Positions 17,703 through 38,732 of a stretch of 64,000 bases of DNA are shown in pieces; positions within the stretch are counted from its first letter, which is position 1, and each line of letters opens with the position of its first letter. Origin of the DNA: Teretinema zuelzerae (GTDB lineage Bacteria > Spirochaetota > Spirochaetia > Treponematales > Treponemataceae); contig NZ_JAINWA010000003.1 in the NCBI RefSeq assembly GCF_021021555.1, positions 1,550,001-1,614,000 on the forward strand, read 5' to 3'. The position numbers and the translations under genes are program-made. Below the pieces are notes generated by a model, which was given only the letters and a program-made list of their open reading frames with translations, had not been told where the DNA came from and made no database searches.

Positions 17703-20700
17703 ATGAAAGGAATAACCCTCGAACAGATCAGTTCGCGCGCACCCGGAGAAGTCGCCGGGAAATTTACGAATTTTCTTGGCGAAACCTACTACCGGATCGG
17801 TAACTATGACGCCATGCCGCCCTTTTTCATGACGATAGTAAGCGCATCGGACATCTGGAACTATATCTGGTCTAACGGAGGCTTAACCGCCGGCCGTAAA
17901 CACTGCGACCAGGCGGTTTTTCCCTACTATACCGCTGATAAAGTCTCGGACGGAAGGACGTACACCGGCTCGTTCACTGCTATCCAGGTTAAAACCCAAG
18001 ACGGAACCTATCACTGGGAGCCATTCTCGGAAGCTGCCAACGGGCTATGGTCAATAGAAAGGAATCTGTATAAAAACCATTCTGGATCGAAGGTCTATTT
18101 TGAAGAGGTTAACAACGATCTCGGCCTTACCTTCCAATATGGATGGACATCCTCCGACGCATACGGATTGGTGCGGCATTCGAGGATAATTAATAATTCG
18201 GGGACAGAGCAAACCGTCACCGTGCTCGACGGCTGCAGAAACATTCTGCCGTCATGCGTCACAGCGGACTTCCAAAACAACAACAGCGTTTTGCTTGACG
18301 CGTATAAACGGACAGACCTTGATGAAGATTCCGGCATGGCTATTTTCTCCATCACGTCGATAGTATCCGATAAAGCAGAGCCCAGCGAAGGACTCCTTGC
18401 GAATATTGGCTGGTTTTCCTGCGAGGGAGATATTACTCTGTCCCCCGATGCCCCGGATGACTTCAGGAAAGGAAAGGCTCTTAATCGAGATATAGTTCTC
18501 AAGGGACAGAGACCGGCATATTTAATTAAAAGAATACTTGCTCTGTCCCCGCGTGGAGGAACCGATTCGTGGTATCAGGTATTCGATACGAGTCTCGAAG
18601 CCGGAAAAATAGCAGAGATAAAAAGAAAACTGAAAAACAGAAGCGTTGTCCTGAAAGACCTGGAGAACGATATTCAAAAAGGCGTAGAACAACTCATTTC
18701 CTACATAGCTACTGCCGACGGTCTGCAGAACACTGCGGATACGGAGACATGCATACATCATGAAGCGAACGTCCTTTTCAATATTATGCGCGGCGGAATA
18801 TTCGCAGACCGCGAAGGTCTTTCCGTAGAGGACTTCAGGTCCTTTGCCGCTGTAAGAAATAAAAAAGCAGGGGCCGACATAGCGCAGCTTACCAAAAATC
18901 TCCCGAGCAACGTATCATTTCGAAAGCTCGAAGAAACGATCGCGGCAAGCAATAATCCGCAAGCCATTCGCTTATTCCGCGAATATCTTCCAATAACCTT
19001 TTCAAGACGCCACGGAGACCCAAGCCGTCCATGGAACCGTTTTTCAATCGAAATCAAGGACGAGAAAGGCAATCCAAAACTGAATTACCAGGGAAATTGG
19101 CGCGATATTTTCCAAAACTGGGAAGCTCTGTCCCTCTCATGGCCGGAGTACACCCAGAACATCATAGCGAAATTCCTTAACGCAACGACGGCTGATGGGT
19201 ACAATCCCTACCGAATCACGCGAGAAGGAATAGACTGGGAAATTCAGGAACCGGAAAATCCTTGGTCGAACATAGGCTACTGGGGCGACCACCAAATCAT
19301 CTACCTTGCAAAGCTCATGGAGCTGCAACACCGCATCAATCCGGCCGCTCTTGCTTCGGATTTGGATTCTCCGCTCTATTCCAGCGGAAACGTACCGTAC
19401 CGGCTTAAATCTCACGCAGATATTCTCCAGAATCCAAGATCGACGATTATTTTCGATTACGACCTTCATGAGAAAATCATGGCCGCTGAAAAGAGCGAAG
19501 GAACCGACGCAAGGCTTCTGCATGCAAAAGACGGCAGCGTAGCCCTTGTATCCATGACGACTAAAATTCTCACGCTTATTCTCGCAAAAATGGCGAGCTT
19601 CGTTCCCGGCGGCGGAATCTGGCTCAACACGCAACGCCCTGAATGGAACGACGCGAACAATGCGCTGGCAGGATACGGCCTTTCCATGGTTACGCTGTAT
19701 TACCTCAGACGTTTTCTTTCATTCCTTCAAATGCTCTATACTGAATCGGGGACAGAGCAATTCAATATTTCCGAAGAGACGGCTGTTTTCTATCGAGAGA
19801 TAGCTCAATACTATCAAAAAGCCCGCCCGGAATCGCTTTTTGAAACGAAGGCCCGACGAACATGCGTCGACACAATCGGATTGCTCTTCGAAAAACAAAG
19901 AAAGGCTCTCTACAACAGTGGATATTCGGAGAATTTACAGCCCGTTTCAAAGGATGAAATTCTTAAGGGAATAGCCGCCTTTATTTCACACATCGACGCC
20001 TCGATCGCGAAGAACCGCAGAAACGACGGACTCTACCATGCCTACAATACAATGGAAGTCCGGGAAGACGGAGGAATCGAGGTTCATAACCTCGATGTGA
20101 TGCTAGAAGGGCAGGTTGCGGTTCTCTCATCGGGATCGCTTTCCGATGACGAAGCAGTGAATCTGTGCGAAAGCCTTAAAAAAAGCCCGCTGTTCAGGGA
20201 AGATCAGTATTCATATATCCTCTATCCCAATAAGGAACTCCCGCGATTCCTTGCAAAGAATCAGGTATCACCGAGCGACGCAGAAGGCATTCTTCTCTTG
20301 AAAACGCTGCTCGATCAGGGAGACTCGTCGATCATATATAAAGACGCTGCAGGCGAGTGCCATTTCAATCCCGGATTCAGAAACAACAAGGATTTGGACA
20401 AGGCCCTAAGCGAGCTTGGAAAGAAAAACGCGGCGGCGACAGAGGAAATAATTGTACGGGATCGGAATAAAATCATGGAACTCTATGAGCAAACGTTCCA
20501 TCACCGCAGCTTTACCGGAAGATCAGGCACTTTCTATGCGTATGAAGGACTCGGCAGCATATACTGGCACATGGTGTCGAAATTGATGCTTGCGGTTCAG
20601 GAAAATTATATGCGTGCGAAAGGCCCGGCGAAGGAAAAGCTTGCACGAATCTATTACGACGTCAGAAAAGGCATCGGCTTTAACAAGACGCCTCAAGTCT

Positions 20701-21119
20701 ACGGAGCGTTTCCGACAGACCCCTATTCGCACACTCCGGCGGGCCAGGGAGCGAAACAGCCGGGAATGACCGGACAGGTTAAGGAAGAGATACTCACGCG
20801 CTGGGGAGAACTCGGGGTTCAAATAGACGAGGGAAGGATTCGATTCGTTCCGGAACTCCTCCGCAAATCCGAAATTCGCGCGGACAATACCATAGAGTTC
20901 AGCTGGTGCGCCATTCCCGTCACCTATCGTTTTACGAAGACGGAGGATGGGGGACAGAGCACAGAAAGCGAGTTCGTATTGGGCAGAGCGGCGAAGATTA
21001 TTCTTAAAATGGCAGATTCTAGTCAGACGATCGACGGAGATGCTCTGTCCCCTGAATATTCCAGCGAAGTCTTCAGACATACCGGTACGATCAAGGCGAT
21101 AGAAGTCCATATCCGATGA
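17703..21119 (+). CDS. Large carbohydrate-active enzyme, cellobiose-phosphorylase-like (clan GH-L type) candidate
   Basis: 1138 residues, start preceded by AGGAGAAA; no signal peptide, so cytoplasmic. The N-terminal third is beta-rich and reads like the sandwich domain of GH94-type phosphorylases (FTNFLGETYYRIGNYDAMPPFF, then WSNGGLTAGRKHCDQAVFPYYTADK). The middle carries aromatic and acidic segments expected of an alpha/alpha barrel (NYQGNWRDIFQNWEALSLSW, ATTADGYNPYRITREGIDWE, NPWSNIGYWGDHQIIYLAKL). The family is my inference; it might instead be an uncharacterised relative without phosphorylase activity. The LacI-type operator upstream supports sugar-responsive control. It contains eight copies of the GGGACAGAG motif in both orientations, read as SGTEQ, ALSP, ALSL or GGQST. 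Its 3' end overlaps the convergent gene by 29 bases. Confidence 0.55.
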   Translation: MKGITLEQISSRAPGEVAGKFTNFLGETYYRIGNYDAMPPFFMTIVSASDIWNYIWSNGGLTAGRKHCDQAVFPYYTADKVSDGRTYTGSFTAIQVKTQDGTYHWEPFSEAANGLWSIERNLYKNHSGSKVYFEEVNNDLGLTFQYGWTSSDAYGLVRHSRIINNSGTEQTVTVLDGCRNILPSCVTADFQNNNSVLLDAYKRTDLDEDSGMAIFSITSIVSDKAEPSEGLLANIGWFSCEGDITLSPDAPDDFRKGKALNRDIVLKGQRPAYLIKRILALSPRGGTDSWYQVFDTSLEAGKIAEIKRKLKNRSVVLKDLENDIQKGVEQLISYIATADGLQNTADTETCIHHEANVLFNIMRGGIFADREGLSVEDFRSFAAVRNKKAGADIAQLTKNLPSNVSFRKLEETIAASNNPQAIRLFREYLPITFSRRHGDPSRPWNRFSIEIKDEKGNPKLNYQGNWRDIFQNWEALSLSWPEYTQNIIAKFLNATTADGYNPYRITREGIDWEIQEPENPWSNIGYWGDHQIIYLAKLMELQHRINPAALASDLDSPLYSSGNVPYRLKSHADILQNPRSTIIFDYDLHEKIMAAEKSEGTDARLLHAKDGSVALVSMTTKILTLILAKMASFVPGGGIWLNTQRPEWNDANNALAGYGLSMVTLYYLRRFLSFLQMLYTESGTEQFNISEETAVFYREIAQYYQKARPESLFETKARRTCVDTIGLLFEKQRKALYNSGYSENLQPVSKDEILKGIAAFISHIDASIAKNRRNDGLYHAYNTMEVREDGGIEVHNLDVMLEGQVAVLSSGSLSDDEAVNLCESLKKSPLFREDQYSYILYPNKELPRFLAKNQVSPSDAEGILLLKTLLDQGDSSIIYKDAAGECHFNPGFRNNKDLDKALSELGKKNAAATEEIIVRDRNKIMELYEQTFHHRSFTGRSGTFYAYEGLGSIYWHMVSKLMLAVQENYMRAKGPAKEKLARIYYDVRKGIGFNKTPQVYGAFPTDPYSHTPAGQGAKQPGMTGQVKEEILTRWGELGVQIDEGRIRFVPELLRKSEIRADNTIEFSWCAIPVTYRFTKTEDGGQSTESEFVLGRAAKIILKMADSSQTIDGDALSPEYSSEVFRHTGTIKAIEVHIR
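18503..18550. repeat. Inverted pair of the GGGACAGAG motif inside a gene
   Basis: GGGACAGAG at 18503-18511 and its complement at 18541-18549 (extended copy TTGCTCTGTCCCC from 18538), separated by 29 bases, inside the large carbohydrate-enzyme gene. The geometry is almost the same as in the intergenic pair at 23526-23574. Confidence 0.7.
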
Positions 21120-26041: not shown

Positions 26042-27328
26042 TTACTTTTTGTGCCGACGATCGAGTTCGCCCAGGACATCAGTCCACGACACTCCCTCTC
26101 GATGCATTAATACATTCACGAAATAAATCAAATCGGCACATTCCCACACGACATCGTCTTTAGATTCTGCCTCTGTGAGTTCTTCAGCTTCTTCCAAAAT
26201 CTTTTCACGCACCCGCTCAGGCGTAAGGGTGGCCGTGTAGGAGCCAGGCTTTGGATTCGCGAAACGGTCAGCAATGATCGATGAGAGGAACGGAAGTGTA
26301 TATGCTCTGTCCCCGACAGTCTTAAAACAAGACCATGCTCCGGTGTGACACGTCGGTCCATGAGGCTTTACAGTGGCAAGAACGGCATCGCGGTCGCAAT
26401 CGACGCGTAATTTAACGACATCCAAGGTATTTCCGGATGTTTCGCCTTTCGTCCAAAGAGTCGATCGGGATCTGCTCCAGAAAGTCAATAAACCGGTCGC
26501 AAAGGTTTTTTCAAGCGCTTCTTTGTTTGCATACCCTTGCATAAGAACTTCTCCGTCGTCGCTCTGTGCGATTACAGGAAGAAGAGGGCCTTTTTCCCAG
26601 TCAAGACAAGAGAGAAAACAATCTTTCAACGAGACTTTCTCCGTATAGAGAGCCATTCCCAGCTGAACATCGCATCCGAGCCGCTCGAGCTCTGTCACCT
26701 CTGTCACCGTTGATACGCCGCCTGCAACGACGACGCGGCAAGAGACAGCGGACCGAAGAGCTTTGACCTGTTCGAGATTGATGCCGGTCATTGTGCCTTC
26801 CCGTTCTACGCATGTATACAACAGCTCTGAACAGTATGGTTCAACGGCTTTAGCAGCCCCTATGAGATCCAGTCCGGCAGATTCAGTCCAGCCCTTGACG
26901 GCAATTTTTCCGTCGCGGCTGTCGACAGAAATTATCAGGTGTTCTTTGCCGACGGTATCCGACAATGCCGACAGAAAAGCTGCGTTTATGCCCGCAGAAC
27001 CGTCGGGAAGCGTAAATGCGGCGGACCCGATAATTACCTTCTCAGCTCCCAGGGAAAGAAGCTCCTTCGCTCTTTTCGCGTCGCGTATTCCTCCGCCGAC
27101 GCGAATGTTTCCCTTCCGCAAAAGACGCTGCAAAATCCCTGTGTTAACAGTCGTACCATCCGGATTCGTGTTTCGCAATGCGGCGTCAAGATCGATAACA
27201 GCAACTTCTCCGTATTTATCAAACTCTTTCACCAGCGAATCAGGATCGTCCCGCTCGAGAACTAAATCCTTGCCCTGCCGAAGCTGAACAACTTTTCCGC
27301 CTTTCAAATCTATCGAAGCTATAACCAT
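26042..27328 (-). CDS. HisA-HisI-HisE trifunctional fusion
   Basis: 428 residues. Residues 1-240 are a HisA (ProFAR isomerase) TIM barrel: ASIDLKGGKVVQL with the catalytic Asp, VGGGIRD, VIIGSAAF, SVDSRDGKIAVKGWTE, and VVAGGVST. Residues 241-345 are HisI, phosphoribosyl-AMP cyclohydrolase, with the zinc and magnesium residues in VDCDRDAVL and GPTCHTGAWSCF. Residues 346-428 are HisE, the pyrophosphohydrolase (EEAEELTEAESKDDVVWECADLIYFVNVLMH). Three consecutive-to-adjacent steps (4, 2 and 3 order around ProFAR) are thus on one chain. HisIE fusions are common; HisA joined to HisIE is unusual to my knowledge. HisF and HisH are not in the window. Confidence 0.92.
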   Translation of the reverse strand: MVIASIDLKGGKVVQLRQGKDLVLERDDPDSLVKEFDKYGEVAVIDLDAALRNTNPDGTTVNTGILQRLLRKGNIRVGGGIRDAKRAKELLSLGAEKVIIGSAAFTLPDGSAGINAAFLSALSDTVGKEHLIISVDSRDGKIAVKGWTESAGLDLIGAAKAVEPYCSELLYTCVEREGTMTGINLEQVKALRSAVSCRVVVAGGVSTVTEVTELERLGCDVQLGMALYTEKVSLKDCFLSCLDWEKGPLLPVIAQSDDGEVLMQGYANKEALEKTFATGLLTFWSRSRSTLWTKGETSGNTLDVVKLRVDCDRDAVLATVKPHGPTCHTGAWSCFKTVGDRAYTLPFLSSIIADRFANPKPGSYTATLTPERVREKILEEAEELTEAESKDDVVWECADLIYFVNVLMHREGVSWTDVLGELDRRHKK

Positions 27329-29831: not shown

Positions 29832-29859
29832 ATCATAGCTTTTGACTCGGGTTTGACAA
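29832..29859 (-). promoter_or_regulatory. Promoter of gph, overlapping the argA promoter
   Basis: Minus strand TTGTCA (29859-29854), 16-base spacer, TATGAT (29837-29832), 8 bases to the ATG. Its -35 box lies on the same bases as the -35 box of the divergent argA promoter, so the two can hardly be occupied together. Confidence 0.65.
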
Positions 29860-29881
29860 GCCCCTGTTACTGACTTAGGAT
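29853..29881 (+). promoter_or_regulatory. Promoter of argA, leaderless
   Basis: TTGACA at 29853-29858, 17-base spacer, TAGGAT at 29876-29881, then 6 bases to the ATG at 29888. No ribosome site. Confidence 0.75.
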
Positions 29882-29887
29882 ACCTGC

Positions 29888-31210
29888 ATGATGCAAACGG
29901 AACGGGTACGCGATGTGCTTCGATATATCAAGAAGTTTAAAGGATCAACCATAGTAATCAGGGTTGACGACGACGTGTTCGACTCTCCTCTATTCAGCTC
30001 CCACATGCACGACCTTGCACTGTTAGCGGAAACCGGCATACGGACTGTCATCATTCCCGGAGCTCAAAATCATATATCTCAGGTTCTCGACGCGTATAAG
30101 GTCGGATGGGAATTCCAGGACGGCATCAGAATTACGCCGGACGCGGCTATGGATTTCATCAAGATGGCGGCATTCGATGTATCGAACCGCATCATGAGCA
30201 GGCTTTCCGCCGAACATATGAATGCGGTGATCGGTAATTGGGTGAGAGCGCGCGGCAGAGGAGTCGTGAACGGCGTTGATTACGGAAGCGCCGGCGTCGT
30301 CGAGAAGATTCAAAAAGAATCGCTTTGCAGGGCGATAGAAGACGGATTTATCCCGATTATTCCATGCATCGGATGGACGGCAACCGGAAAACCATACAAC
30401 ATATCCTCTACGGAAATTGCAGTTTCGACTGCCGTAGCATTGAAGGCAGATAAACTTTTTTTCCTGGGTTGCGGAAATACCGTATCGATCGACGAATATC
30501 AAATGCCGGATTCTGTTGCTCTGTCCCCGGAAGGCAGAATGGCCGCTATCGCTGTAGACGATATCGACTCATTCCTCAAGCTCAATCAGGCTGTTGAGAA
30601 TCCCCGCTGTCCGACGCTCGAGCTTGAGGATCTCTTGATTCAGGGGCGCGACGCATGCATAAAAGGCGTTACCCGAGCGCATATTCTCGACGCGGACATC
30701 GACGGCGTAATGCCTGCGGAAATTTTCTCGGAACTTGGATCCGGAACCATGATTTACCGCAACAACTACGGAGATTTCAGAACGATGACGAAGGATGACA
30801 TCGCGGGTGTTCTGTCGCTTATGAATCCATTCGTCGAAGAGGGAATCCTCTTGCAGAGAACGAGCGAAGAACTGGAACAGCAAGTACAGGATTTCGTAGT
30901 CTATGAAATCGACGGCGGAATACGGGCATGCGGCGCCCTCCATGCCTATCCTGAAGGGCTTGGAGAAATCGCGGGCATCGCCGTGGACGAGGCCTATGCG
31001 CACATGGGCATAGGCCCCAAACTCATGGACCTCTTGATAGACAGGGCAAAAAAAGCGGATTTTTCTAAAATTTTCGTCCTTACCACGAAAACAGCAGACT
31101 GGTTTGAAAGATTCGGCTTCAAATTGACTAATATTTCTGAAATGCCGTCAAAAAGAAGAGAAAAATGGACTGAAAAACGCGGATCGAAAATCTTAATCCG
31201 CTCTCTATAG
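29888..31210 (+). CDS. argA: N-acetylglutamate synthase (ArgA type)
   Basis: 440 residues, the length of classical ArgA. Residues 1-285 are an amino-acid-kinase-fold domain (LALLAETGIRTVIIPGA, GVDYGSAGVVEKI, GCIGW-type loop IPCIGWTATGKPYNISSTEIA), the arginine-sensing part. Residues 290-440 are a GNAT acetyltransferase (MTKDDIAGVLSLMNPFVEEGILLQRT, GEIAGIAVDEAYAHMGIGPKLMDLLI, IFVLTTKTADWFERFGF). It makes N-acetylglutamate from glutamate and acetyl-CoA, the first step of arginine synthesis. It directly precedes an unusual CarA/CarB pair that resembles the N-acetylglutamate-activated animal enzyme CPS1. Message probably leaderless. Confidence 0.92.
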   Translation: MMQTERVRDVLRYIKKFKGSTIVIRVDDDVFDSPLFSSHMHDLALLAETGIRTVIIPGAQNHISQVLDAYKVGWEFQDGIRITPDAAMDFIKMAAFDVSNRIMSRLSAEHMNAVIGNWVRARGRGVVNGVDYGSAGVVEKIQKESLCRAIEDGFIPIIPCIGWTATGKPYNISSTEIAVSTAVALKADKLFFLGCGNTVSIDEYQMPDSVALSPEGRMAAIAVDDIDSFLKLNQAVENPRCPTLELEDLLIQGRDACIKGVTRAHILDADIDGVMPAEIFSELGSGTMIYRNNYGDFRTMTKDDIAGVLSLMNPFVEEGILLQRTSEELEQQVQDFVVYEIDGGIRACGALHAYPEGLGEIAGIAVDEAYAHMGIGPKLMDLLIDRAKKADFSKIFVLTTKTADWFERFGFKLTNISEMPSKRREKWTEKRGSKILIRSL

Positions 31211-31248: not shown

Positions 31249-31286
31249 TAACCTCGTGAATGAACCCTCGCTGCATGGAGGTTACA

Positions 31287-32384
31287 GTGTACGATTATTC
31301 AAGAAACGCACGGATTTTACTCGAAGACGGAACAGAATTCGAAGGATTCGCCTTCGGTCATGAAAGTTCAGCCGCCGGAGAAGTATTATTTTATTCAGGA
31401 CAGGCAGATATCGGCCGTTTGTTGTCGGATCCGTCTTTAAAAGATGCGATTTTGGTCCTTACCCAGCCGATTTGCGGCTCTACCGGAATACGGGACGCTG
31501 GAGTCTGTCCGTTTGGTCTGGAAACAGGGACAGAGCACCCGACAATAACAATAAAAGGCCTCGTCGTCGGAGATTATCAGGCGCCGGAAGTATTTCCGCC
31601 TCAGGAAAAAGCGTTGACCCGGTGGCTCAGAAAATATCAGGTTCCGGGAATTTCGGGCATAGATACAAGAGCCTTAATAAAGAAAATCGAACAACGCGGC
31701 GTCATGAGAGCGAAAATAATCATTGATGATACGAGGGACGTGTCGTTCAGTTCCGCTGGAAAACACGCCCACCCTCAATACATCTCTGTAAAGAAAAGGC
31801 AAACATACGGTGCGGGACAGAAAAAGATAATCGCGATCGACTGCGGTATTAAGCACTCTGCGTTACGGAAGCTTATTACACCGGACACAACCGTAATAAA
31901 AACTCCGTGGAATGACGATTTTCGGGGAGAGGATTTCGATGGAGTTTTCATCAGCGGAGGCCCCGGAGATCCGACTTCGTGGGATAAGCCGATAGCCATC
32001 ATTAAAGACTTGCTCAAAGGGGACAGAGCAATCTTCGCGACCGGCCAGGGAGCCGTCATTCTGGCATTGGCGGCAGGCGGCGCAACATATAGGCTCGGAA
32101 AAGGACACCACGGGTCGAGCATTCCCTGTATCGATCTGCAAACAGGCAAATGCATTATTACTGCGCAGAATCATTCATACGGCATACGAGAAGATTCGCT
32201 TCCCCATGAATGGGAAACAACATTTCTAGAAAACAACTCTCATTGCATAGAAGGAATAAGGACGCGCAAAGGGCTGTTTTCAGGCGTACTGTTTCATCCG
32301 GAAGGAAATCCCGGACCTTCCGATGCGGCGTGGTTGTATGATGATTTTCTGAAAATCGTGATCGAGGGAGGAATACAGAAATGA
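31287..32384 (+). CDS. carA: CarA-like carbamoyl-phosphate synthase small subunit lacking the glutaminase nucleophile
   Basis: 365 residues if it begins at the GTG with GGAGG six bases upstream (residue 10 of a longer frame from the ATG at 31260); the N-terminus then reads YDYSRNARILLEDGTEFEGFAFG like other CarA. The C-terminal class-I amidotransferase fold is complete (IDCGIKH, FISGGPGDP, NHSYGI, FHPEGNPGP), but the elbow normally reading FGICLGH is FATGQGA: Gly at 32043-32045 stands where the catalytic Cys should be, and the next His is Ala. Glutamine hydrolysis should be impossible. This parallels animal CPS1, whose equivalent domain has also lost the Cys. The stop overlaps carB by 4 bases. 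Confidence 0.85.
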   Translation: MYDYSRNARILLEDGTEFEGFAFGHESSAAGEVLFYSGQADIGRLLSDPSLKDAILVLTQPICGSTGIRDAGVCPFGLETGTEHPTITIKGLVVGDYQAPEVFPPQEKALTRWLRKYQVPGISGIDTRALIKKIEQRGVMRAKIIIDDTRDVSFSSAGKHAHPQYISVKKRQTYGAGQKKIIAIDCGIKHSALRKLITPDTTVIKTPWNDDFRGEDFDGVFISGGPGDPTSWDKPIAIIKDLLKGDRAIFATGQGAVILALAAGGATYRLGKGHHGSSIPCIDLQTGKCIITAQNHSYGIREDSLPHEWETTFLENNSHCIEGIRTRKGLFSGVLFHPEGNPGPSDAAWLYDDFLKIVIEGGIQK

Positions 32385-35300
32385 CGTCATATCGCATTAA
32401 TACCCCGAAGACGGTACTTATCCTCGGTTCAGGGGCGCATAGAATCGGACAGACAGGAGAATTCGACTCATCGTGTCTGCAGGCGATCAAAGCCCTCAAG
32501 ATGGAAGGGATCAGGACAATTCTGATTAACCCGGAAATGACTGCGGTTCATACGTCGGAAGGACTTGCCGACGCTACCTATTTTCTTCCTATAACAGCAG
32601 AATTTGTAGAATCTGTGATCGAGAAGGAGCATCCGGACTCGCTCCTCATTCATTTCGGGGGAAAGCTCGCATACCAATGCGTATTGGAGTTGGAGAGCCT
32701 CGGCGTTCTGGAGCAGTTCAACCTCCAAGTTTTGGGAACCCAGATGCCGGATCTGGACAAGGCGTTCAACAGAGAATCCTTCGTCGCCGCCCTCGATGAA
32801 GCGGGCATTCCTGCCTTGCGCGGCATAAAGCTCGCATGCGGAGAACAGAACGCCGTACCGGCAGACATCGAGTATCCGGTAATTCTTCGATCATTGAATT
32901 CGGGAGACGAGCGTGCGGCTCATCTGTGCGGGGACAGAGCAGAACTAGAACACATCATCCGGAAACGTTTCAGCGAAACGGCGTGCTGCTTCGTCGAACC
33001 CTTCCTGGGCGAATGGAAGGAAGTAGAAATTGAACTGTTGCGGGATGCGATGGACAACTGCATCCAGGTATGCAGCATGGAGAGCCTTGATTCGCTCGGA
33101 ATCCATAACGGAGATTCATTGGTCGTCATTCCCGCTCAGACACTCAGCGGAGACGAACTTGAACGCATGAGAACAGCTGCGTTTCAAGCGGCCAGGCGAT
33201 TCAATATCATTGGCGAAGCGACAATCCGCTTTGCCCTTCATCCGGACACGCGGGAGCAACTGTTGATCGAAATTGCTCCGCGGCTATCGCGCAGCACTGC
33301 CATCGCTTCAAAGGCCTCCGGTTATCAAATCGGCTACATAACCACCCGAATTTCACTTGGATTCGCGCTGTCTGAAACAGCGAATCCGTTAACGGCCAAT
33401 AGTAAATTCTGCACGGAACCGGTTTTCGACTGCATCGCGCTAAAGATGCCGCGCTGGGATCGGGAGAAGTTCGAAAAGGCGGATCCCTATTTGGGGACAG
33501 AGGTGAAAGCCGTCGGAGAAGCGATGGCTTTCGGCAGGACGTTTCCCGAGGTCCTGCAAAAAGCCGTCAGGATGACGATGCCGGGGTGCCCGGGAATTCA
33601 CGGGCACGGCCATTCATTCAAGGATATCAAGGATTCCCTCCGAAATCCCACAGACGAGCGCGTTTTCGCGCTTTACGAAGCGATTCGGGACGGCTGGTCT
33701 ACCGAAAGAATCGTTAAACACGCTCACATAGATCCCTGGTTCATTTCTCAGTTGCGGATCATAGCGCGTATCGGGGAGGATTTATCTTCCGCGGGGACAG
33801 AGCAACAATCAGAAATCCCTCAATCTGCGCGATCGACCGGAAAAAAACTTTTGCCGGGAAAAGAGCTTCTGCTCGCGGCGAAACAGGCCGGATTTTCAGA
33901 CGAACAGATTGCGCAGTGCGTCGGAAGCAGAGAAGACAAGATCAGAGCGTTGAGGCTTGAACTTTCGATCAGACCGGTAAGCAAATCCATCGATTCCACT
34001 GGCGGAGAATCGACCGTCAGGCACGGAGGCCTCTACATGACCTATTCCGGTGTTTCAGACGATGTGAAGGCGCTCGGCGCGGGAGCGATGGTGTTGGGAA
34101 GCGGACCCTTCCATATCGGTTCGAACCTCGAGTACGAATGGTGCTGCGCGAGCGCCTTGAAGACGATCCGCGCCGCCGGGAAGCCGGCGATAGTGCTCAA
34201 CTGCAACCCGGAGGCGGTTTCAACCGATTTCGATATCGCAGATCGAGTATACTTCGAGGAATTAAGCCTCGAGCGAGTCTGCGATGTGTACGACGCGGAG
34301 CGTCCGGAGGGAATCATACTCTCGATGGGCGGTCAAATTCCGAATAATCTTGCGATTCCGCTCTCTCGAAGAGGCATCCCCGTTCTGGGAACCCAACCGG
34401 CCGACATCGACAGGGCGGAAGACCGGAATAAATTCAGCGCGCTTCTCGATCAGCTGGGCATCCAGCAGCCTGAGTGGATGGAAGTTTCCAGTCTTGAGGC
34501 TGCGAGACAGTTTACGGAAAAAAACGGATTTCCCCTGTTGATCCGTCCAAGCTATGTATCCTCGGGCGCGGCTATGAGCGTCGCATGGGACGACGCAAGC
34601 CTGAAAGGGCTGCTCTCCCGCGCTATGAAGGTCAGTCCCGATCATCCGGTGATTCTTACCCGCTATGCCGAAAATTCAAAAGAAATCGAAATAGACGCGG
34701 TAGCGAACAAGGGGGAGATCCTCGCCTACGCGATCAGCGAGCATATAGAAAACGCCGGCGTGCACTCAGGCGACGCGACGGTGGTTCTCCCGGCGCAGCG
34801 CATATATCTTTCGACGGCCCAGGCGATAAAAAAAGCCGCGAGAAAAATCGCGGCGGCTCTGGAAATCACCGGGCCGTTCAATATTCAGTTTCTGGCGAAA
34901 AGCACGAATATTCAGGTCATCGAATGCAATCTTCGCGCCAGCCGATCGCTGCCCTTCTGTTCGAAGGTGTTCCACATCGATATGGCTGCCCTTGCCGTGA
35001 AGGCTCAACTCGGCTTGGATGTACAAAAAATCGACGGATCGCGGCTCGATTTCGATCATGTAGGAGTCCGGGCGGCGCAGTTCAGCTATTCGCGCATGAA
35101 GGGGACGGACCCGGTGGCCGGAGTGGAGATGGCCAGCACGGGCGAGGTAGGCTGCATGGGCAGAGGAGTCCGGGATGCGTTCATGAAAGCCATGCTTTCG
35201 ACCGGATATACCATACCGAAGAAAAAAATTCTGCTATCGACGGGTCCGATCGAAAACAAGGTCGACTTCATCGAAAGCGCGAAAAAGCTGAAATCGCTCG

Positions 35301-35623
35301 GCTATCAGCTTGCGGCTTCCGGAGGAACGGCTCGATTCCTGCAAAACCACGGCATCGAGGCGGAAAGCCTGCCCTGGCCGCTGGAGGACAAGCATCCGAA
35401 CATCGCGGACGAGCTTCAGGCGGGATTGATCGATCTGGTCATCAATATTCCGAAAAACAACCGGGAAAGCGAATTGAGGAACGACTACAGCATCCGCCGG
35501 TTGAGCGTCGATCTCGGCATCCCGTTGATTACGAACATCAAAATCGCCAAGCAATTCATAGATTCGCTGGAGTGGTATAAAACCCGCGGACTCGAGGTGA
35601 AAAGCCGCGAAGAATATACCTGA
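32381..35623 (+). CDS. carB: CarB-like carbamoyl-phosphate synthase large subunit, eukaryote-like, with degenerate first synthetase half
   Basis: 1080 residues. First half (1-400) begins like animal CPS1 (VLILGSGAHRIGQTGEFD), but the glycine loop after ILRS reads LNSGDERAA, and of the metal ligands (E. coli Q285, E299, N301) only Glu is kept: R283, E297, A299. The central region (about 401-550) is helical. The second half (551-930) is intact with RPSYVSSGAAMSV, ISEHIENAGVHSGDAT, FNIQFLA and IECNLRASRSLPF, the animal-type wording. The C-terminal MGS-like domain (about 940-1080) keeps a Trp in LPWPLED and the Asn in DLVINIP, positions I recall as N-acetylglutamate-binding in CPS1. I infer that an ammonia- or carbamate-using enzyme remains; a regulatory pseudoenzyme is the alternative. 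Confidence 0.85.
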   Translation: MTSYRINTPKTVLILGSGAHRIGQTGEFDSSCLQAIKALKMEGIRTILINPEMTAVHTSEGLADATYFLPITAEFVESVIEKEHPDSLLIHFGGKLAYQCVLELESLGVLEQFNLQVLGTQMPDLDKAFNRESFVAALDEAGIPALRGIKLACGEQNAVPADIEYPVILRSLNSGDERAAHLCGDRAELEHIIRKRFSETACCFVEPFLGEWKEVEIELLRDAMDNCIQVCSMESLDSLGIHNGDSLVVIPAQTLSGDELERMRTAAFQAARRFNIIGEATIRFALHPDTREQLLIEIAPRLSRSTAIASKASGYQIGYITTRISLGFALSETANPLTANSKFCTEPVFDCIALKMPRWDREKFEKADPYLGTEVKAVGEAMAFGRTFPEVLQKAVRMTMPGCPGIHGHGHSFKDIKDSLRNPTDERVFALYEAIRDGWSTERIVKHAHIDPWFISQLRIIARIGEDLSSAGTEQQSEIPQSARSTGKKLLPGKELLLAAKQAGFSDEQIAQCVGSREDKIRALRLELSIRPVSKSIDSTGGESTVRHGGLYMTYSGVSDDVKALGAGAMVLGSGPFHIGSNLEYEWCCASALKTIRAAGKPAIVLNCNPEAVSTDFDIADRVYFEELSLERVCDVYDAERPEGIILSMGGQIPNNLAIPLSRRGIPVLGTQPADIDRAEDRNKFSALLDQLGIQQPEWMEVSSLEAARQFTEKNGFPLLIRPSYVSSGAAMSVAWDDASLKGLLSRAMKVSPDHPVILTRYAENSKEIEIDAVANKGEILAYAISEHIENAGVHSGDATVVLPAQRIYLSTAQAIKKAARKIAAALEITGPFNIQFLAKSTNIQVIECNLRASRSLPFCSKVFHIDMAALAVKAQLGLDVQKIDGSRLDFDHVGVRAAQFSYSRMKGTDPVAGVEMASTGEVGCMGRGVRDAFMKAMLSTGYTIPKKKILLSTGPIENKVDFIESAKKLKSLGYQLAASGGTARFLQNHGIEAESLPWPLEDKHPNIADELQAGLIDLVINIPKNNRESELRNDYSIRRLSVDLGIPLITNIKIAKQFIDSLEWYKTRGLEVKSREEYT

Positions 35624-35691
35624 TCCAAGAATCTTACAATCTGTTAACCCCGCATCTTCGCCGGCAACTGGCGCAAGTGCGGGGCATTTTG

Positions 35692-35697
35692 TATAGT
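35692..35697 (+). promoter_or_regulatory. -10 box of MATE gene, leaderless
   Basis: TATAGT 6 bases before the ATG at 35704; the -35 region is poor. An imperfect GC-rich hairpin (CCCCGCA ... TGCGGGG, 35648-35684) just upstream may end the carAB transcript, but its T-run is weak. Confidence 0.4.
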
Positions 35698-35703
35698 CGT
35701 GGA

Positions 35704-37089
35704 ATGAACATCAAAAAATACATCGGGCCGGCCCATTTCTATAAGATGGCGCTCGGAATAGCCGTTCCGGTAATGCTTCAGGCTCTGCTCCAAAGCCTCG
35801 TATCCCTCATCGACAACTTCATGGTTGCCGGCCTCGGGGACATTAAAATGAGCGGCGTCAATGTAACGAATCAGCTCCTTTTCATCTTCATCGTCGCCTC
35901 GAACACCCTCGTCTCGGGCGGCGCCATTTTCATGTCGCAATTCAACGGCGCTAAAGACCGCGAAGGAATGCAACAGACCTTCCGGTATAAAGTTCTTACC
36001 ATAAGCGTCCTGGCAACGGCTGCGATTGCTCTGTCCCTCCTGTTGCCGTCTCAAATGCTCGGCCTTTTGCTGAATTCGAACTCGCAGAGCGCGGGCATCA
36101 TCGCCGAGGGAAAAACGTATCTTTCCTTAATCGCTCTCACCTTTATTCCGATGGGAATATCGCTTGCGATAGGTTCATCCCTCAGGGAAATAGGCAAGGT
36201 TCGCGCGCCGTTGATCATTTCAGTAGCCGCGACTCTGGTGAATACCTTTTTTAACTGGGTTCTCATATACGGCAACCTGGGCGCTCCGCGAATGGAAGTC
36301 GCGGGAGCGGCAATCGCCACGGTAATCGCGCGCGCGTTCGAGATGATTTTGTTCATCGGCTACGCGGCCGGAACGAAACCGCCGTTCTGGGTAAAGGCGC
36401 GCAGCTTTTTCAACCTCAATCTGCGCCTGTTCGCGGCTATCCTGAGAAAATCAGGAATCATTTTTCTTTCCGAGATGTCCTGGGTGCTGACGGAAACGGT
36501 GATGAACGCGGTGTATAACGGCCGCGGAGGGGCGGAAATAGTATCAGGGATGGCCGGAGGCTGGGCGATAGCGAATCTCTTCATGCTCGTGTTCGGCGGA
36601 ATCCATACATCGGTAGGGGTAATAGTCGGAGGGACTCTGGGCAGGAACGAACTGGAAACCGCGCGCATACAGGCGCGCTGGCTCAGATCGGGAGCCCTCA
36701 TCGTCGGATTCGTCGTGGCTGCGATAGAATGCTTTTCGGTGTTCCTCATCCCGGTAGTATTCGGAAATCTCTCGGCGGAAGCCCGCCTTATCACCCGGAA
36801 CATGCTGTGGGTAATCGCACTGTATATGCCGGTATGGACGTATCTGAACGCGCAGTTTGCTACGGCTCGTTCCGGGGGAGACACGATCATGGGCGCATGG
36901 GTCGACGGCGGCGTGAATACGGTTCTCTTCCTTCCGGGCATTTTTCTGCTCGCGGCCTTCACGAAACTCGGGCCGATCGAGATGTTCGCTATTGTAAAAC
37001 TCACGGATTTTGTTAAAGTAGGGATCGCCCATTGGCAATTGACAACTGAACGCTGGCTGAAAAACCTGGCGGCGCAGCATAAATCGTGA
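35704..37089 (+). CDS. MATE-family multidrug/cation efflux protein
   Basis: 461 residues with twelve hydrophobic helices in two similar halves. N-terminal LGIAVPVMLQALLQSLVSLIDNFMVAGLGDIKMSGVNVTNQLLF and the central SEMSWVLTETVMNAVYNGRGGAEIVSGM match the MATE pattern. It should export organic cations or other compounds using a Na+ or H+ gradient. It lies between carB and arginase, and its stop is 11 bases before the arginase ATG, so the last two may be co-transcribed. Substrate unknown. Confidence 0.9.
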   Translation: MNIKKYIGPAHFYKMALGIAVPVMLQALLQSLVSLIDNFMVAGLGDIKMSGVNVTNQLLFIFIVASNTLVSGGAIFMSQFNGAKDREGMQQTFRYKVLTISVLATAAIALSLLLPSQMLGLLLNSNSQSAGIIAEGKTYLSLIALTFIPMGISLAIGSSLREIGKVRAPLIISVAATLVNTFFNWVLIYGNLGAPRMEVAGAAIATVIARAFEMILFIGYAAGTKPPFWVKARSFFNLNLRLFAAILRKSGIIFLSEMSWVLTETVMNAVYNGRGGAEIVSGMAGGWAIANLFMLVFGGIHTSVGVIVGGTLGRNELETARIQARWLRSGALIVGFVVAAIECFSVFLIPVVFGNLSAEARLITRNMLWVIALYMPVWTYLNAQFATARSGGDTIMGAWVDGGVNTVLFLPGIFLLAAFTKLGPIEMFAIVKLTDFVKVGIAHWQLTTERWLKNLAAQHKS

Positions 37090-37100
37090 AGGAAAAACGA

Positions 37101-38021
37101 ATGAAAGTACGAATAATAGAAATGCCCCTGGATTACGGAGCCAGCAGGCGCGGGGCCGATATGGGGCCGTCTGCGATACGGCTCGCGGGACTCAGGGACA
37201 AGCTTAATTCTCTCGGCATCGACTCCGACGATCTCTATCCGCCCATCGCGATACCGCCTCAGGAGTACATCGATCCCGCCAGCGAACTGCCGGTCGACGG
37301 AGCGAAGCATCTGGGGCCGATACTGGACGCATGCGGCGAGCTTGCGCAGAATGTCGAATCGGTATTGAAGGCGGGAGATTTTCCCCTCATTCTCGGCGGG
37401 GACCATTCAATCGCGCTCGGGTCCCTTGCCGGAGCGGCGTCGGCCCACGCGGAAACGGGAAAAAGGATCGGCGTGCTTTGGGTGGACGCGCACGGAGACT
37501 TCAATACGACGCAGACGACGCCGAGCGGAAACATCCACGGAATGATACTAGCCGCGTCCTGCGGATTCGGAATCCCCGAGCTTACCGGCTTTTACACGGG
37601 AAAACGCAAGGTCGATCCCGCGAACGTGTGCTATATCGGCGTCAGGGATCTGGATAGAGGAGAGCGGGCGCTCATGAAGGAAGCAGGAGTCACCGTCTGG
37701 TCGATGAGCGACATCGACCGCAACGGGATTTCAAAAACTGTGGCCGAAATCACCCGTCATTTCAGAGAAAACGTCGATACCGTCCACGTCAGCTTCGACA
37801 TCGACGCTATCGATCCGCGCTTCGCTCCCGGAGTCGGCATCGAAGTTCCCGGAGGACTTACCTACCGGGAAGTTCTGTTTTTAATGGAAGAAATGGCGAA
37901 TACGGGGATGGTCTCGTCCGCCGATATGGTTGAAGTGAATCCGGTCCACGACATCCGCAACAGCACGGCGAAAATGGCAGTCAACCTCATCGGCAGACTG
38001 CTTGGCGAAACGGTGTTCTAG
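37101..38021 (+). CDS. rocF: Arginase
   Basis: 306 residues from the ATG preceded by AAGGA. Ureohydrolase manganese motifs: GGDHSIALGS near 95, VDAHGDFNT near 120 and SFDIDAIDPRFAPG near 226, plus GGLTYRE, the form of true arginases rather than agmatinases. It converts arginine to ornithine and urea. With argA and carAB nearby, the locus looks able to close an arginine/ornithine cycle if the other arg genes exist elsewhere. Confidence 0.9.
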   Translation: MKVRIIEMPLDYGASRRGADMGPSAIRLAGLRDKLNSLGIDSDDLYPPIAIPPQEYIDPASELPVDGAKHLGPILDACGELAQNVESVLKAGDFPLILGGDHSIALGSLAGAASAHAETGKRIGVLWVDAHGDFNTTQTTPSGNIHGMILAASCGFGIPELTGFYTGKRKVDPANVCYIGVRDLDRGERALMKEAGVTVWSMSDIDRNGISKTVAEITRHFRENVDTVHVSFDIDAIDPRFAPGVGIEVPGGLTYREVLFLMEEMANTGMVSSADMVEVNPVHDIRNSTAKMAVNLIGRLLGETVF

Positions 38022-38039: not shown

Positions 38040-38648
38040 TTACACGATTTCCTTGGAAAACGAGCCGAGTGCTCCATGTACGAAGCCGATGCGTTCAAGA
38101 TACTTCCAGTGATCTTTTCCGACATTCTCGTACACGAATCGGGAATAGCCTTTGTCCTTGAAATAGGGAAGCTGCTTCTCGAAAAACCAGGTTCCTATTC
38201 TGAGGTCGCGGTATTGAGGCGTAACATAATCGACGAGTATCTGGCACTCGGTCGGGCTCGAGTCCTTCCACGCGAAAAGTCCGGCGATTTCACCGTTGCA
38301 CATGAAGTACGAAAATCCCCGGGCGTCCTCGAACGCGGTTTCTCCGAAAATTTGATCGATCTCATCGCGATGCTTTGAATAAAAGAAATCAAGGAGGGCG
38401 CTGCCGCGTTCCGCTTTAACGAGCTCATACTCGGCTTTGATCCGCGATATGCGGAGAACGAACCAAAGGTCTATGAAAATAATTCCCACATTCATGACAA
38501 CCGTCGGAGCGGAGCGGGTTAAAAAAGCGAAAACTACAAAAAGCAGGGAACCGGCAGCATTTATCCACCGGAGTTTTACGATGGATTTCATTGTCAGCGA
38601 TATGAGAATAATGAAAGAGGCGGTGTAGCCGAGAAGGTCGATATACAT
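38040..38648 (-). CDS. YgjV-like membrane domain fused to GNAT acetyltransferase
   Basis: 202 residues from the ATG (12 bases after AGGAG; a GTG three codons earlier is closer to it). Residues 1-75 are three hydrophobic helices (LLGYTASFIILISLTMKSIVKLRWINAAGSLLFVVFAFL) like YgjV inner-membrane proteins. The rest is a GNAT-like domain (GEIAGLFAWKDSS, ILVDYVTPQYRDLRIGTWFFEKQL, YSRFVYENVGKDHWKYLERIGF). This would be a membrane-tethered acetyltransferase of unknown substrate. Convergent with arginase; stops are 18 bases apart. Confidence 0.7.
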   Translation of the reverse strand: MYIDLLGYTASFIILISLTMKSIVKLRWINAAGSLLFVVFAFLTRSAPTVVMNVGIIFIDLWFVLRISRIKAEYELVKAERGSALLDFFYSKHRDEIDQIFGETAFEDARGFSYFMCNGEIAGLFAWKDSSPTECQILVDYVTPQYRDLRIGTWFFEKQLPYFKDKGYSRFVYENVGKDHWKYLERIGFVHGALGSFSKEIV

Positions 38649-38732
38649 GTAGTTCACAGTCTCCTATGAGGCTCAGTATACCGGCTCTTCAGTATTTTTT
38701 CCACCATCGCCCTTCTGCTTCGAAGGGCGCAA

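Follow-up and report, generated by a model that had tools for sequence, protein, structure and literature searches.

Carbamoyl-phosphate synthase (CPS), with which urea and arginine synthesis begin, is a textbook example of multi-site allostery, and there is still debate over the way in which its L4 domain acts on active sites far away. In human CPS1, N-acetylglutamate (NAG) is bound in L4 by T1391, T1394, W1410, N1437, P1439, T1443 and N1449, and the signal runs through R1453 and D1322 to the T'-loop, with the C-tail also needed (PMC4655335). Dead paralogues that switch a live enzyme provide a precedent outside CPS (PMC5201418, PMC3663545). Here we analysed a 64,000-nucleotide stretch of the 3.62-Mb Teretinema zuelzerae genome (the window, C3:1550001-1614000), which encodes CarA* and CarB*, the degenerate CPS subunits of an operon that begins with N-acetylglutamate synthase (NAGS). 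Catalytic residues are lost from this pair across its clade, and our sequence comparisons suggest that CarA*-CarB* is probably a regulatory pseudoenzyme with a CPS1-type effector site and signal-transmission loop, acting on NAGS or on arginine synthesis. The subunits and their altered active sites are as follows.

31287-32384, + strand: CarA*, dead glutaminase-like small subunit (Pfam GATase and CPSase_sm_chain)
32034-32054, + strand: nucleophile elbow FATGQGA, Cys to Gly and neighbouring His to Ala (alignment to E. coli CarA)
32381-35623, + strand: CarB*, 1080-aa pseudo-synthetase with domains L1-L2-L3-L4, in a 4-base overlap with the CarA* stop
32894-32920, + strand: LNSGDERAA, where the first synthetase domain should have its phosphate-binding glycine loop; loop destroyed (alignment)
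33227-33277, + strand: first-half metal ligands R283 (E. coli Q285), E297 (E299) and A299 (N301) (alignment)
34886-34930, + strand: second-half metal ligands Q836, E848 and N850, intact in the window and broken in 9 of 12 orthologues

A preliminary description of the locus had reported the loss of the CarA nucleophile, and alignment agrees: E. coli C269 is replaced by Gly and H272 by Ala in all 11 aligned CarA* orthologues, leaving no Cys at the elbow in any of them. The His beside the Cys had been taken as required; it is indeed lost, but relatives carrying FGICLGN, some of which yielded a single CarA, indicate that it is dispensable. Similarly, the His of FHPEGNPG (H353) is kept in the window copy as described, but is lost in 7 of the 11 orthologues.

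CarB* follows the same pattern. As first reported, its first half lacks the glycine loop and two of three metal ligands (R283 and A299), while E297, the equivalent of E. coli E299, is kept. The destroyed glycine loop and the Q285 to Arg change occur together in 12 of 12 orthologues, with four different Arg codons (CGC, CGG, CGT or AGG), and the N301 position is variable. In E. coli CarB, changes to the glycine loop and to Q285 reportedly abolish bicarbonate-dependent ATPase. The second half had been called intact, which is true of the window but not of the clade: just 3 of 12 orthologues (the window copy, G008 and G009) have the full Q829/E841/N843 ligand set, and the remaining nine carry HEN, QET, RGS, RDS, QST, KED, QES or QAN. 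Human CPS1 and all 30 live sequences compared keep the CarB catalytic columns, and none of these residues is missing from the sister enzymes of neighbouring spirochaete families. We ruled out sequencing or assembly error as the cause, since the losses are common to 12 genomes.

These data bear on two catalytic explanations. An ammonia-dependent CPS, paralleling animal CPS1 and supplying either arginine synthesis or a urea cycle that includes the adjacent arginase, would share the missing Cys with CPS1, and would suit an operon with NAGS and arginase in a genome that also has ornithine transcarbamylase (OTC), argininosuccinate synthase (ASS) and argininosuccinate lyase (ASL). We regard it as very unlikely, given a bicarbonate-phosphorylating site broken in every orthologue and a second site broken in nine, columns that CPS1 and the 30 live sequences all retain, and the presence of an intact carAB at another site. 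Where catalysis is concerned the comparison with CPS1 misleads, since neither phosphorylation site has been lost from CPS1. The earlier suggestion that ammonia or carbamate is used with the second half doing the chemistry is likewise not supported as the conserved function. In a narrower version, the second synthetase domain alone would act as an ATP-dependent carbamate kinase on chemically formed carbamate, or in reverse to make ATP. The complete Q, E and N of the window, G008 and G009 and the weaker relaxation of L3 than of L1 are in its favour, but it could hold in those three species only; with the site degenerate in the other nine orthologues, such an activity cannot explain why the clade as a whole retains the gene, and we consider it unlikely.

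We then compared conservation by domain. Mean pairwise identity in the dead clade was 0.55 for L1, 0.53 for L2, 0.66 for L3 and 0.78 for L4, compared to 0.81, 0.59, 0.80 and 0.73 in the live sisters, and on a fixed topology the ratio of tree lengths (dead clade to live sisters) was 4.4, 1.6, 2.7 and 1.03, respectively. As an internal control we used canonical CarB from seven genomes against the six with full-length CarB*, two overlapping sets: identities from L1 to L4 were 0.92, 0.77, 0.84 and 0.66 for canonical CarB and.55,.54,.66 and.76 for CarB*. L4 is therefore the best-conserved domain of CarB* and L1 is low, and this order is reversed in canonical CarB of the same genomes; in the common six-genome set, L4 minus L1 identity was +0.21 for CarB* (95% interval 0.15 to 0.27) and -0.28 for canonical CarB (-0.34 to -0.22). 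Within domains, dead-clade identity falls to 0.24 at the L1 glycine loop (0.83 in sisters), 0.40 at the L3 glycine loop (0.98) and 0.49 at the L1 metal strand (0.91). It stays at 0.98 in the K'-loop (0.97), 0.87 in the T'-loop (0.94), 0.79 in the effector helix (0.66), 0.82 in the A-loop region (0.82) and 0.85 in the C-tail (0.64).

Fold and frame are under purifying selection while the catalytic domains are relaxed. Pairwise dN/dS between the closest species was 0.14-0.17 for CarB* (0.21 for one partial pair), 0.15 for CarA*, 0.11 for NAGS and ~0.05 for canonical CarB, with L4 of CarB* alone at ~0.06. A decaying, functionless pseudogene would explain drifting catalytic residues and the clean loss of the pair from one of 12 genus genomes. 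However, reading frames are open in every orthologue of a clade of ~60% pairwise identity, the C-tail is 85% identical, and the dN/dS of ~0.14-0.17 argues that carAB* is not decaying, making this explanation highly improbable.

The kept region comprises two features.

35075-35143, + strand: T'-loop, 87% within the clade, the NAG-signal relay loop in human CPS1 (PMC4655335)
35171-35620, + strand: L4, the MGS-like allosteric domain, with conserved C-tail and CPS1-type residues S980, T983, W999, N1022, P1024 and R1039

CarB* is identical to human CPS1 at T1394, W1410, N1437, P1439, R1453 and D1322; Ser stands in for T1391, Asp with an adjoining Asn stands in for N1449, and the A-loop has one extra residue. 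Two E. coli-type sites were rejected as the kept ligand site: the ornithine site, whose E892 is Ala (once Ser) in all compared CPS1-type proteins, and the IMP/UMP site, whose K993 is Trp. Because these E. coli residues are absent while CPS1-type NAG-site residues are kept, the likeliest ligand of L4 would be an arginine-pathway acid such as NAG. The tight conservation of the shared L4 residues argues that they are probably in use.

The CPS1-like ancestry proposed earlier is supported by structure matches and by phylogeny. Human CPS1 was the best PDB match of both subunits, with E-values of 9e-70 for CarA* (7e-46 versus E. coli) and 2e-280 for CarB* (6e-201 versus E. coli), and an AlphaFold2 model of CarB* (pLDDT 80) found its nearest fold in 5dou, the NAG- and ADP-bound human CPS1 (TM 0.90). 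In a tree of 39 large subunits, the dead orthologues formed a single clade (100/100), whose sister group was made up of CPS1-type enzymes from other spirochaete families (100/99). The two together grouped with human CPS1 and with Bacteroidota, KSB1, Ignavibacteria and other sequences, apart from E. coli-type CarB; among named CPS sequences, those of Treponema and Spirochaetales metagenome-assembled genomes (MAGs) are the nearest. CarA*-CarB* descends from the CPS I class, yet we do not file it under CPS I because it lacks the two working phosphorylation sites that define that class. CarA* scored 273 bits against TIGR01368, under the cut-off of 307, and CarB* scored 1103 bits against TIGR01369, over the cut-off of 1027; the latter model therefore does not test catalysis.

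Several relatives help to place the pair. Sister CPS1-type CarAB of Treponematales and Bacteroidota, which are glutamine-dependent, share the L4 motifs STGP, WPLE and INIPKNN and lie beside arginine genes in two genomes; unlike CarAB*, they keep the catalytic residues and the glutaminase Cys (L078 excepted) and have no NAGS link in the loci read. Canonical CarAB (CPS II, E. coli type) has the same domain order and carA-carB pairing, but differs in its intact catalysis, its other effector site (K993, no PKNN) and its opposite conservation profile. Animal CPS1 resembles CarAB* in its dead glutaminase, in W1410, N1437, P1439, R1453 and D1322 of the NAG switch, and in having NAGS as functional neighbour. 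It differs from CarAB*, which consists of two subunits, has both phosphorylation sites degenerate (CPS1 needs both), replaces Cys with Gly rather than Ser, and has Asp for N1449.

CarA-CarB single-chain fusions as in eukaryotic CPS occur in bacteria (L054:6251-10630, L128, L130 and L152; 1460-1474 aa in L054 and L152), and bacterial CarB commonly carries a CPS1-type L4 with equivalents of P1439, N1437 and often W1410 (L082-L157; Bacteroidota, KSB1, Ignavibacteria and others). In two MAGs, a CPS1-type CarA has Gly for Cys beside a catalytically complete CarB: L078:1302-5848 from a Treponema sp. (FGIGLGSQ) and L107 from Bacteroidetes ADurb.Bin037 (CGIGMGNQ). These two are candidates for true ammonia-dependent bacterial CPS, the make-up that the preliminary description had envisaged. 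Other apparently Cys-less CarA in several Bacteroidota proved to be alignment slips, so that only these two remain.

At its locus, the pair lies in the operon-like order NAGS-CarA*-CarB*-MATE-arginase, all on the + strand. The open reading frame coordinates and the GTG start of CarA* first given for the pair stand, while the NAGS and arginase context had been missed. The other features are listed here.

29853-29881, + strand: sigma-70-like promoter TTGACA-17-TAGGAT directly 5' of NAGS (10 of 12 matches)
29888-31210, + strand: NAGS, ArgA type, AAK plus GNAT (TIGR01890, 296 bits, cut-off 203)
31277-31281, + strand: GGAGG ribosome-binding site of CarA* (read directly)
35677-37089, + strand: MATE-family transporter (Pfam MatE)
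37086-38021, + strand: arginase, rocF (TIGR01229, 291 bits, cut-off 228), in a 4-base overlap with the MATE stop

The longest open reading frame of CarA* starts at ATG 31260; we preferred GTG 31287 because GGAGG precedes it. Such promoter-like sites are no more frequent in the region than expected by chance, and position is the sole support for this one. No ArgA-like gene other than NAGS was found in the genome, and NAGS orthologues (62-74% identical, GNAT motifs intact) occupy the same genomic place in relatives. Elsewhere in the window, a 205-aa protein with no Pfam match (38040-38657, - strand) adjoins arginase in several genus genomes, a 428-aa HisA-HisIE fusion (26042-27328, - strand) is conserved across the genus (76-78% identity), and a 1138-aa open reading frame (17703-21119, + strand) has no Pfam match at E <= 0.001.

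Among 274 family genomes, dead CarA was present in 11 of the 12 from the genus and also in G028, a member of a different genus; no further dead carAB* was seen in a sample of 394 order genomes, and no dead-clade member was among the matches in the named genome collection. An identity gap separates dead CarA orthologues (47-53%) from Cys-bearing ones (46% or less where checked), and the close homologues in the sister group again retain the glutaminase Cys, apart from L078. Wherever the locus is assembled, carAB* is 3' of NAGS; in G028 NAGS still adjoins carAB*, with MATE and arginase no longer beside the pair. In G010, G015, G034 and G059, which have no carAB* at the site, MATE directly follows NAGS with nothing between, and this arrangement in G010 and the neighbouring genus indicates that carAB* sits in an older NAGS-MATE pair. 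The NAGS of G010 nests with that of G006 (100/98), so G010 lost the carAB* pair, and did so cleanly.

The earlier description left open whether a second, intact carAB exists in the genome; we found one at C3:1029763-1034051, with FAICLGH. Together with a lone carB at C3:2883-6035, it excludes carAB* as the only CPS of the cell in the window genome, which also has an arginine cluster argC-J-B-D-G-H at C3:457-466 kb, OTC at C3:391.8 kb, and both ASS and ASL. Nearly all carrier genomes show intact glutamine-type carAB: for G011 a first search gave no canonical carA and a canonical CarB fragment cut off at a contig end was then found, and no canonical carAB was seen in G009, which is 77% complete. 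The lone carB (G000:C3:2883-6035; L002, L169) is catalytically complete with no carA beside it, and likewise in G001, G006, G008, G010 and G028. For G010 we found no other CPS large subunit and detected no carA, so the lone carB product there may use ammonia or another glutaminase. The canonical CarB of G028 (L165:2250-5501) is split over several frames, either an assembly frameshift or a broken gene.

The near-constant presence of canonical carAB would also suit a pseudoenzyme whose partner is canonical CarAB rather than NAGS, with mixed oligomers through which the arginine branch influences carbamoyl-phosphate supply; canonical carA, argG and argH likewise went undetected in G010, the genome that lost carAB*. 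We think this partner improbable: L2, the oligomerisation domain, shows no special conservation, the operon link is to NAGS and not to carAB, and a single co-loss in a draft genome is weak evidence.

The regulatory pseudoenzyme offered as an alternative in the preliminary description fits best with relaxed catalytic domains, a kept allosteric domain, purifying selection and an intact carAB elsewhere. From the domain-wise selection and the NAGS operon we infer a non-catalytic role, as regulator or scaffold. A working glutamine-dependent CPS1-type CPS would have entered the NAGS-MATE operon of one spirochaete lineage, losing first its glutaminase nucleophile and bicarbonate-phosphorylating site and later, in most species, its carbamate-phosphorylating site, while selection would still keep the fold, L4 effector pocket, T'- and K'-loops and C-tail. 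We further infer the ligand, the partner and the direction of effect: CarA*-CarB* may bind NAG or a close arginine-pathway metabolite and change shape, adjusting a partner that would most likely be the adjacent NAGS, its constant neighbour, and less likely canonical CarAB. The more specific proposal, a stand-alone NAG-operated switch stripped of three active sites and controlling the NAGS of its own operon, is put forward only tentatively.

Four observations weigh against a regulatory role of this kind. A second half that looks complete persists in the window copy, G008 and G009; NAGS is still present in G010, from which the carAB* genes were lost; CarB* has Asp in place of human CPS1 N1449, so the ligand may not be NAG; and the L4 residues are common to live sisters and may be mere inheritance. 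Our literature searches listed no title relevant to a CPS pseudoenzyme. Trypanosomatid prozymes (of AdoMetDC and deoxyhypusine synthase) resemble CarAB* as dead paralogues that selection maintains alongside a live enzyme from their own pathway, and they offer a model of how CarAB* may act; they differ in their unrelated folds, in having the live paralogue as partner and in their proven activation (PMC5201418, PMC3663545).

Annotation pipelines would label CarB* a working CarB, as it passes the family cut-off. As a natural CPS in which effector site and transmission loops are kept and catalysis is dropped, the pair separates the switch from the engine. Bacterial CPS widely share the CPS1-type effector domain and its NAG-site residues, which bears on the origin of NAG control in the animal urea cycle; if our interpretation is true, the relationship known from animal NAGS and CPS1 would here have been turned into a sensor-enzyme pair.
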